Shown: piece by piece, positions 4,600 through 35,455 of the stretch
Position numbering within the stretch: the stretch's first letter is position 1
Layout: the number at the start of each line of letters is the position of its first letter
NCBI GenBank assembly: GCA_004298115.1
Contig: SCRJ01000024.1
Coordinates: 1-44,280 of the forward strand
DNA length: 44,280 nucleotides
Direction: 5' to 3'
Source: Acidobacteriota bacterium
GTDB lineage: Bacteria; Acidobacteriota; Thermoanaerobaculia; Thermoanaerobaculales; Thermoanaerobaculaceae
Notes under the pieces: generated by a model
The model's input: the letters and a program-made list of their open reading frames with translations, nothing else
The model's database searches: none
What the model was told of the DNA's origin: nothing
Program-made: the position numbers and the translations under genes

Positions 4600-5288
4600 G
4601 GATGTCTTCCCTGGCTGATCGTACGCGCCGGATACTTCGTCGGTTCTGTCCCACCGCCGTCAGGCCGAAAACGTAACAATGAGGTACCTGGTGTGCGCCA
4701 GGCAAAGCCTGGAGAAGGGGGAAGAGATGACATAGGAGGAACAGTCACTCGGAAACCTTCTTGAGGAGCCCTGCGGGTCAAAGCCCGTCCGGCAAGGGTG
4801 GCCGCCAGCCGGGAGCGAGTCTTGCGCCGTGAGGGTAACCGAAGCGGTGAAGCGTAGACAGCGAGTGTGCAGGCCGTGTGAGCGAGCCCCGAAATCGCAT
4901 TTGTCGCGGGAGCTGACGCCGTACCAGGAGCGGAAGGCAACACCGAGGCGTTGAACGGGCCTGACGCCGAGGTCCCGCCGGGGTCTGAGGGGAGCAGGGC
5001 ATGCACGCATGGGGGTTCCCCAGGAACCTGGGAGGTCCTGCCGCCTCCGTTGCAGCACCCAGTCATGGAGAGCTGGGTCAATAAAGCTCCTGCTCTGTCC
5101 GGGGGCGTCCGCCCGGGCCGATGGCGAAGACAGGACGCAGGCGGTACCGGCGAGCGAGGCAACGAGTCCGCTGGGACGGGTGGCAGGAAGTCGGAGCGTC
5201 TCACCGTACCGAGGACGCGGGGGAATCCGCCCCAGGAGACCCCGCCGAGGGAGAGGGACGCCGGGACATGGGGCTGCTGGAGGGCACG

Positions 5289-6638
5289 ATGGACGGGACA
5301 CCGAGCCCGGAAGACATCTCACCGGGAATCCAGCGGATCGCGGAGCTGGCGAGGAGTGCGCCAGGGCTGGCCTTCACCACCCTGGCCCACCACATCGACA
5401 CCAGCCTTCTCACCACAGCCTTCGAGCGCACGCGCAAGGACGCCGCCGTCGGCGTCGATGGACAGACGGCGGCCGAGTACGGCCGGGATCTTGAGGCAAA
5501 CCTCCGAGTTTTGGAGGAGCGTTTCAAGACCGGTGAATACGAAGCGCCGCCGGTGCGGCGGGTGCACATCCCGAAAGGGAATGGGCGCTCAACGCGGCCG
5601 ATTGGGGTACCGACGTTTGAGGACAAGGTCCTCCAGCGGGCCGTCGTCATGGTCCTGGAGCCGATCTTCGAGCAGGATTTCCTGCCCTGCTCGTATGGCT
5701 TCCGGCCAGGCCGCTCGGCGCATCAGGCGCTCGATGCACTCTGGAAGGGGCTGATGAAGATGCACGGGGGCTGGGTGCTCGAGGTGGACATCAAGAGTTT
5801 CTTCGACACGCTTGACCATGGTCACCTCCGGAGCTTCCTCGACCGACGGGTGCGCGACGGTGTGATCCGGCGAATGATCGACAAGTGGCTGAAGGCGGGC
5901 GTCATGGACGAAGGGAGCCTCACCTACCCGGAAGCCGGGACGCCCCAGGGAGGGGTGATCTCGCCGCTGCTGGCGAACCTCTACCTCCATGAGGTGTTGG
6001 ACACGTGGTTTGAGGGGGAGGTCAAGCCGCGCCTGCGTGGGGCGGCGTTCCTCATCCGGTATGCCGATGACGCTGTGATCGCGTTTGCTCAGGAGAGCGA
6101 TGCACGGAAGGTCTTCGAGGTCCTGCCGAAGCGGTTTGCGCGGTACGGTCTGCGCCTGCATCCAGAGAAGACGCGGCTGGTGCCGTTCGGCCAGCCGAAG
6201 GGAAAGCCCACGGACCAGCGCCCCACGGGCGGTCAAGGTCCGGGGTCGTTCGACCTGCTGGGCTTCACCCACTTCTGGAAGGTCTCCCGGAAAGGGAGCT
6301 GGGTGATCGCCCGCAAGACGGCCAAGAGTCGTTTTGCGCGGGCCGTGAAGACGATCACGCAGTGGTGCAAGACCTACCGGCATCTGCCGGTCGAGGACCA
6401 GCACAAGGCCCTCGTGCGAAAGCTCAAAGGGCACTTCGCGTACTACGGGATCACCGGCAACGGGCGGTCGCTGGCAGCCTTTCGCCACCAGGTGATGCGT
6501 ACCTGGTGCACATGGCTGCGTCGGCGCTCGCAGAAGGCGCACCTTTCGTGGGATCGGTTCAACCGGCTTCTCAAACGCTACCCACTGCCTCCAGCACGTG
6601 TCGTGCATTCGGTCTACCGTCATGCAGCGAATCCATGA
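5289..6638 (+). CDS. ltrA: Group II intron-encoded reverse transcriptase/maturase
   Basis: About 449 residues, the usual length for an intron-encoded protein without an endonuclease domain. It assists splicing of its host intron and copies it into DNA targets. The reverse transcriptase blocks are clear: GVDG near the start, [48 protein letters not shown], and the catalytic RYADD with YADD around residue 258. A thumb/maturase region follows ([23 protein letters not shown]). No HNH endonuclease motif follows. ATG 5289 is preferred because GGAGGGC precedes it at good spacing; an in-frame ATG at 5121 would add 56 Arg-rich residues overlapping intron RNA structure. The stop at 6638 lies only 7 nt before domain V. 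Confidence 0.93.
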
Positions 6639-6645
6639 TCCCGAA

Positions 6646-6719
6646 GAGCCGGATGCGGGAAATCTGCACGTCCGGATCTGTGGGGGGCCGGGGAGGGCAA
6701 CCTCCCCGGTCTACCCGAC
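6646..6719 (+). ncRNA. Group II intron domains V and VI
   Basis: Domain V is 34 nt (6646-6679). It begins GAGCCGGATGCGG, has a GAAA tetraloop and closes with TGCACGTCCGGATCT, keeping the AGC catalytic triad. Domain VI follows as a GC-rich stem capped by GCAA with an unpaired A near 6713 as the likely branch point, 6-7 nt before the 3' splice site. Confidence 0.88.
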
Positions 6720-24863: not shown

Positions 24864-24891
24864 TTGACACGCCCCGCGCCGCCGCTATCCT
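24864..24891 (+). promoter_or_regulatory. Promoter of the uORF-kinase transcript
   Basis: TTGACA (24864-24869), a 16-nt spacer and TATCCT (24886-24891). The ATG of the short upstream frame at 24899 lies 7 nt after the -10 box, so transcription should start at or within 1-2 nt of that ATG. Confidence 0.75.
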
Positions 24892-24898
24892 TGAGCGG

Positions 24899-24994
24899 AT
24901 GCCCTGGAGAGTCCAACCCCTCGGTCCGCGGGTGATGTCCGTCGTCCAGTCGCCGGCGGGCCCGGCTCCCGAACGGAACCGCGCGTCGGCGTGA
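24899..24994 (+). CDS. Candidate leaderless 31-codon upstream ORF overlapping the kinase start
   Basis: ATG 24899 opens a 31-residue frame (starts MPWRVQPLG, ends RNRASA) whose TGA (24992-24994) overlaps the GTG start of the kinase as GTGA. It has no ribosome binding site and would be the first codon of the mRNA. The kinase GTG also lacks one, so ribosomes finishing this frame could restart at the kinase. No family is recognisable; it may act only as a translational leader. Confidence 0.5.
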   Translation: MPWRVQPLGPRVMSVVQSPAGPAPERNRASA

Positions 24995-34870: not shown

Positions 34871-35455
34871 CTAGTGCTTCATCATGTGATGGGCCGCCGG
34901 AGCGGCCGCGGTGCACGTCTCATGGCCGAGCGGCGTCCACGTCCCGTTCAGCTGCAGCTCCCACGCGTGCTCCAGCGTCTCGGCGCCCTTCTTCGTGAAG
35001 GTGTCGCGGCTGGCGAACGTCTTGCCGTCCATCGAGCCTTCCCCGGTCCAGACCATCGTGTCGCCGTTCCACCCGGGCGAGGTCTCCTGCGACCAACCGC
35101 CCCCGTTGTCCACCCACAGCATCACGAACTGCTTCTTGCCGGGGTCAAACGTCATGTGGAACATCCCTTCCATCGGCCTCGGAGTCGCCGCCGTCTTGGT
35201 CTCCACGACCATGCCCGACACCCAGAAGCCGCCGAGGGCGCCGTGAGTGTGGACCTTCGAGGCGGTGGCGTGCGCGGAGCCGAAGGGCGAGGCGTCGGCC
35301 TGCCCGGTGCACGCGAAGCTGCCCTCGAACGGCTTCAGCTGGGCCATCTCCGCCGCGGGGTGGGGAACCGTGGGCGCCTGCTCCGCGGCGCCCGCCGCGA
35401 CGCCGGCGGCGAGGACCGCAGCCGCTCCCACCGCGAGGAACCGTGTGCTGTTCAT
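34871..35455 (-). CDS. Exported DUF1579 protein
   Basis: 194 residues. A signal peptide (about 1-24) is followed by a DUF1579 domain: LKPFEGSFACTGQADASPFG, GFWVSGMVVET, HMTFDPGKKQFVMLWVDNGGGW, WTGEGSMDGKTFASRDTFTKKG and AWELQLNGTW. The tail ends HHMMKH, rich in His and Met. DUF1579 proteins are periplasmic beta-barrel-like proteins of unknown role. ATG 35455 has AAGGAG upstream. It has a near-consensus promoter with an unusually AT-rich leader. Confidence 0.87.
   Translation of the reverse strand: MNSTRFLAVGAAAVLAAGVAAGAAEQAPTVPHPAAEMAQLKPFEGSFACTGQADASPFGSAHATASKVHTHGALGGFWVSGMVVETKTAATPRPMEGMFHMTFDPGKKQFVMLWVDNGGGWSQETSPGWNGDTMVWTGEGSMDGKTFASRDTFTKKGAETLEHAWELQLNGTWTPLGHETCTAAAPAAHHMMKH

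Follow-up and report, generated by a model that had tools for sequence, protein, structure and literature searches.

How ribosomes reach a gene that has no recognisable binding site for them is the question raised by a receptor-type Ser/Thr kinase gene in a 44,280-nt stretch of Acidobacteriota DNA (contig SCRJ01000024.1), analysed as a whole and referred to here as the window. The deduced product matched the kinase domain (PF00069, E=1.5e-49) and contained the HRDLKPEN and DFG motifs, which places it among the PknB-type kinases; approximately 25 kinase-domain matches were found in the draft genome of the source organism. The GTG at 24991 is the only ATG, GTG or TTG codon usable as a start in the kinase frame, there being an upstream stop codon at -99 and no start in between. 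An unannotated N-terminal extension of the kinase was rejected, as neither an in-frame start codon nor coding potential was present upstream of the GTG. A co-directional gene for a 289-aa protein lies 177 nt upstream of the kinase gene, and no terminator-like site was seen between the two.

Features of the kinase locus (positions in the window; G003 and G005 are the two close orthologues)
Feature	Position	Strand	Remarks
Sigma-70-like promoter, TTGACA-N16-TATCCT	24864..24891	+	Kept exactly in the G003 orthologue, lost in G005
Predicted transcription start, at the ATG or one base before	24898..24899	+	Placed by its distance of 6-7 nt from the -10 box and by the leaderless peak seen at 6-8 nt across the genome
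31-codon upstream ORF (uORF), predicted leaderless, GTGA-coupled to the kinase	24899..24994	+	31-codon frame in both orthologues
GTGA stop/start overlap, proposed restart site	24991..24994	+	GTGA in G003, ATGA in G005
PknB-type Ser/Thr kinase, 853 aa	24991..27552	+	One hydrophobic segment (approximately residues 303-323), TPR region

Upstream of the kinase, a TTGACA box (24864-24869), a 16-nt spacer and TATCCT (24886-24891) are followed after 7 nt by an ATG (24899-24901), which opens a frame of 31 codons (MPWRVQPLGPRVMSVVQSPAGPAPERNRASA) whose TGA (24992-24994) overlaps the kinase GTG (24991-24993). On re-reading, the coordinates that an earlier sequence-only reading had given for this arrangement all proved exact, and its statement that neither start has a ribosome binding site was borne out, with no SD-like tetramer found upstream of the uORF ATG or the kinase GTG. 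The promoter is the sole match to a sigma-70-like consensus between 24000 and 26000, where shuffled sequences gave an expectation of 0.0 +/- 0.2. The GTGA overlap alone is no rarity, since approximately 21% of shuffles of the kinase leader contain an ATG frame that ends close to the start; the unusual point is not the overlap by itself but its combination with an ATG at the predicted transcript start. The kinase leader matched no Rfam family, the sole Rfam match in the window being a group II intron elsewhere (4780-6719, plus strand; RF02005 and RF00029), which flanks a 505-aa ORF (5121-6638) that presumably encodes the reverse transcriptase of the intron.

In a 2011 survey, TANNNT approximately 12 bp upstream of the start was the signature of leaderless genes, and 13% of genes were estimated to be leaderless in three Acidobacteria (PMC3160421). 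We found that TTGACA-N15-18-TANNNT occurred 89 times in the kinase's own genome as against 4 times for the reversed pattern, indicating that this genome does contain genuine promoters of such a type. Within a 1.44-Mb sample of the same genome, with expectations taken from 37 control offsets, 90 coding-like genes began at an ATG 6-8 nt past TANNNT, compared with 23.6 expected (p 2e-25), and offsets of 6, 7 and 8 nt contributed 38, 30 and 22 starts, respectively, against approximately 8 per offset. In nine genomes of the genus taken together, an ATG followed 84 TTGACA promoters at 6-8 nt, versus 29 at 14-16 nt. The sharp peak of gene starts at 6-8 nt, which is the signature of the 2011 survey, and the promoter counts make it very likely that leaderless initiation is available in the source organism. 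The distance from the end of the -10 box to the uORF ATG, 7 nt, lies inside this peak, and a 5'-terminal start is predicted at the locus. SD motifs were barely more frequent than in the control (97 versus 78 of 457, in a crude set of starts), suggesting that a missing SD is ordinary here and that the kinase GTG might initiate unaided, a point against the coupled reading.

Short frames starting 6-8 nt past TANNNT numbered 36 in the 1.44-Mb sample (20.4 expected), and 13 were joined through an RTGA or TTGA overlap to a coding-like gene, versus 2.8 expected (4.6-fold, p 9e-6); the coupled share of short frames was 13/36 at these offsets as against 35/252 in the controls (Fisher p 0.002). Genus-wide, 8 of 30 short frames were coupled and 0 of 10 in the control, a difference that is not significant alone. 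A 0.4-Mb sample of a relative, G001, was enriched in leaderless genes and had no excess of coupled frames (2 versus 1.4), so that the generality of the coupled class across the genus is unproven. The targets of the coupled frames in the own genome include an EAL/GGDEF/GAF protein, a thioredoxin-like protein, a CAP-domain protein, a DUF1579 protein and others, and this variety suggests that the class is general and not peculiar to the kinase. The earlier suggestion of an unusual control point for a Ser/Thr kinase finds no support, and the same layout precedes EAL/GGDEF, thioredoxin-like and DUF1579 genes in the genome. When the sequences were read by eye, an SD-like stretch was present within the short frame in approximately 9 of the 13 coupled cases and absent for the kinase. 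The window itself contains a second leaderless-type short ORF (35508-35452, minus strand; TTGACA-16-TATGAT-8-ATG, 18 codons), which overlaps, as ATGA, the start of a gene for a 194-aa DUF1579 protein (34871-35455) and provides it with a good SD (GGAAAGGAG).

Two close orthologues of the kinase were found, in G003 and G005, with protein identities of 86% and 84%; a scan of the genome contigs and a family-wide search with the TPR half yielded no further close ones. In G003, the ATG, the exact 31-codon length and the GTGA are all kept, the promoter block is 89% identical with an unrelated flank upstream of it, and a GGAG is located approximately 13-16 nt upstream of the kinase GTG. A recognisable promoter consensus is absent from G005, in which the frame from ATG to ATGA again has 31 codons and an additional in-frame ATG is present four codons upstream. 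The comparison of homologous loci proposed earlier was thus favourable in part, with the frame and overlap retained in both orthologues and the promoter retained in G003 but lost in G005. Between the own and G003 uORFs, 22, 20 and 27 of 30 sites were identical at codon positions 1, 2 and 3, respectively, so that third positions were spared; overall identity (77%) was below that at kinase third positions (approximately 80%), and coding potential was negative in all three species, suggesting that the layout has been kept and not the peptide. Few residues are common to the three peptides, and a functional uORF peptide was rejected, since neither a coding signature nor a purifying pattern was present. 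A neutral simulation gave a probability of approximately 0.05, given no indels, that the ATG and open frame would survive in both orthologues; with two orthologues only, this conservation is modest when taken alone. The freedom of the diverged uORFs from indels is suggestive and forms no part of the tests.

These data may be best explained, with a probability that we place at roughly 0.6, by a leaderless start on a disposable 31-codon frame followed by termination-reinitiation at the kinase GTG. Transcription from the promoter would begin at or next to ATG 24899 and give a leaderless mRNA; ribosomes would initiate on the 5'-terminal AUG, translate 31 codons whose peptide sequence is not under selection, stop at the UGA and re-initiate on the overlapping GUG, making kinase output dependent on leader translation. 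The short frame would then be a device for delivering ribosomes to an SD-less kinase gene, and neither a sensor nor the source of a functional peptide. The layout exceeds chance. Leaderless loading at ATG 24899 with a restart at the kinase, as the sequence-only reading had it, is the best-supported account, drawing on what the DNA itself provides (the anatomy, the genome-wide leaderless signal and RTGA class, and a layout conserved without its peptide), with the transcript start, translation and coupling remaining predictions.

The data could also be read, with distinctly lower probability, as an untranslated 93-nt leader, in which the ATG and its frame are by-products of high GC content and of the A after GTG, and the SD-less GTG starts the kinase independently. 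The frequency of such frames in shuffled leaders, the lack of selection on the uORF peptide and the apparent commonness of SD-less starts in the source genome are all consistent with this; however, the ATG falls in the 6-8 nt leaderless interval, in which coupled short frames exceed expectation 4.6-fold, and the ATG, length and overlap are kept in both orthologues. It is quite unlikely that the short frame is a relic of a 5'-terminal ATG that formerly began an N-terminal extension in the kinase frame, until a frameshift cut it off from the kinase and expression was restored through overlap coupling. Both conditions occur among FeoB-like genes, with a leaderless ATG in the gene's own frame in L118 and an 11-codon ATGA-coupled frame in L128, from another species, and the changes between the own and G003 sequences (3, 8 and 10 at kinase-frame positions 1, 2 and 3) hint at the kinase frame; but this positional pattern is not significant, no coding signature was present in the kinase frame ahead of the GTG, and neither orthologue has an in-frame extension from a leaderless ATG. 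Such a relic is in any case a story of origin, compatible with leaderless initiation and reinitiation at the present locus.

The sequence-only reading had further suggested that the locus may be sensitive to codon or ribosome state, and a regulatory leader, in which stalling or slow uORF codons set kinase expression by attenuation or by antibiotic or codon sensing, would be its full form. Regulatory-type leaderless leader peptides seem to exist in the genus, for example a Trp-rich 19-aa leader before aroDE, but no conserved regulatory codons or nascent-chain stall motif were found in the uORFs of the three species, and neither an attenuator nor a terminator was found between the uORF leader and the kinase. 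A regulatory RNA fold was likewise rejected, the folding z-scores of the leader in the three species (+0.76, -0.65 and +0.02) not going beyond shuffles. With no codon run either, the uORF has neither the conserved codons nor the alternative structures or terminator of a transcription attenuator or stalling leader peptide; the suggested sensitivity gains nothing from these results, and we consider such a leader very unlikely. Programmed -1 frameshifting joining the uORF to the kinase is highly improbable: the two frames do overlap, one base apart, but reading of the sequence revealed no obvious slippery run and the kinase frame upstream of the GTG is not coding-like.

The leader before aroDE is a 19-codon leaderless leader peptide ending W.WPVRR (WPWSMGR in one variant), present in five genomes of the genus (L205:138-297, own genome, C94; L100, L200, L214 and L227). 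An aroD-aroE fusion gene (DHquinase_I + Shikimate_dh_N) follows after approximately 97-99 nt, with strong hairpins in the interval (fold z -2.7 and -2.2), and on its sequence the leader resembles an attenuator of the shikimate pathway that is leaderless and responds to Trp.

Short frames ending at a kinase start were also observed in a second family, the SHY-type kinases of the genus (start V-I-G..(V/I)SHY), most members of which have a TTGACA 107-119 nt before the GTG, together with ATG-initiated frames, 15-24 codons in length, whose ends fall between 6 nt upstream of the GTG and 4 nt inside it. In L023 and L029, for example, both frames have 24 codons, the promoters being 91% and the uORFs 57% identical. 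A leader of approximately 11 nt is predicted for these uORFs, which are thus not strictly leaderless. The SHY-family frames are supporting evidence for the uORF reading but no independent proof, because with GTGA starts roughly one shuffle in four is expected to contain an overlap frame. Among 57 kinases, uORF overlap as such occurred in 16 versus 9.3 in shuffles, a weak excess in a phylogenetically non-independent set. It seems unlikely that Ser/Thr receptor kinase families of the genus have in common a rule of expression through disposable uORFs that end at the start codon, by which kinase levels would, as a group, follow the capacity for leaderless (70S) initiation, for example under stress.

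A comparable architecture has been described in mycobacteria, in which leaderless small ORFs coupled by RTGA are over-represented (p<0.0003) and their peptides diverge between species while leaderless initiation and coupling are maintained (Shell et al. 2015, PMC4633059). The mycobacterial and acidobacterial cases have in common a TGA overlapping the next RTG (GTGA at 24991-24994 here) and over-representation, and a layout kept as the peptide diverges may be a further shared feature. Over-representation was found in the own genome (13 versus 2.8) and did not reach significance in the G001 sample, which was smaller; of the two orthologues, G003 retains the full layout with a diverged peptide and G005 the frame only, its promoter consensus being absent. 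The mycobacterial cases were established by RNA-seq and ribosome profiling, whereas ours comes from sequence alone, belongs to the phylum Acidobacteriota and has a TPR-type Ser/Thr kinase as its target. In E. coli, 5'-uAUG ORFs on SD-led mRNAs can either increase or decrease expression of the downstream gene (PMC4965119, PLoS One 2016); they share with the kinase uORF an AUG at the mRNA 5' end (predicted here) that opens an out-of-frame short ORF, but their downstream genes have an SD and the kinase does not. Termination-reinitiation at ATGA overlaps (PMC6728339, Nat Commun 2019) similarly involves a 4-nt stop/start overlap that lets a terminating ribosome restart, although the usual partners are two real genes and the upstream partner here would be a disposable frame. 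Ribosome delivery is named as a likely function of short uORFs in a 2025 review (PMC12548453). A literature search of partial coverage revealed no description of coupled leaderless ORFs from Acidobacteriota, for which translation data are scarce. On the best reading of its sequence, the kinase uORF would represent the coupled leaderless small-ORF architecture known from mycobacteria, here in a soil acidobacterium, suggesting that leaderless initiation with RTGA reinitiation, best shown in mycobacteria, may be a routine ribosome supply to SD-less genes in Acidobacteriota. Gene finders would miss such short frames and may mis-assign the starts of the genes behind them.

Promoters were also seen before other short frames. 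At L209, L197 and L211, where no gene was identified, a conserved TTGACA promoter is followed by ATGCAGCAT...GTTTGTTTGAAAATACCTTGCGGGAGGTGA, encoding a peptide MQH...VCLKIPCGR in two genomes, with the frame broken in the third; the L209 element had no Rfam match, and the three sites are possibly a leader peptide or small RNA. Promoters at L204/L293, L123 and L225 have TTCGCA..ATGACGAA at the start site, a TTCG/CGAA inverted repeat that may be a regulator site, and open short MT(K/N)(S/R) frames preceding thioredoxin-like and CcdA-like genes.
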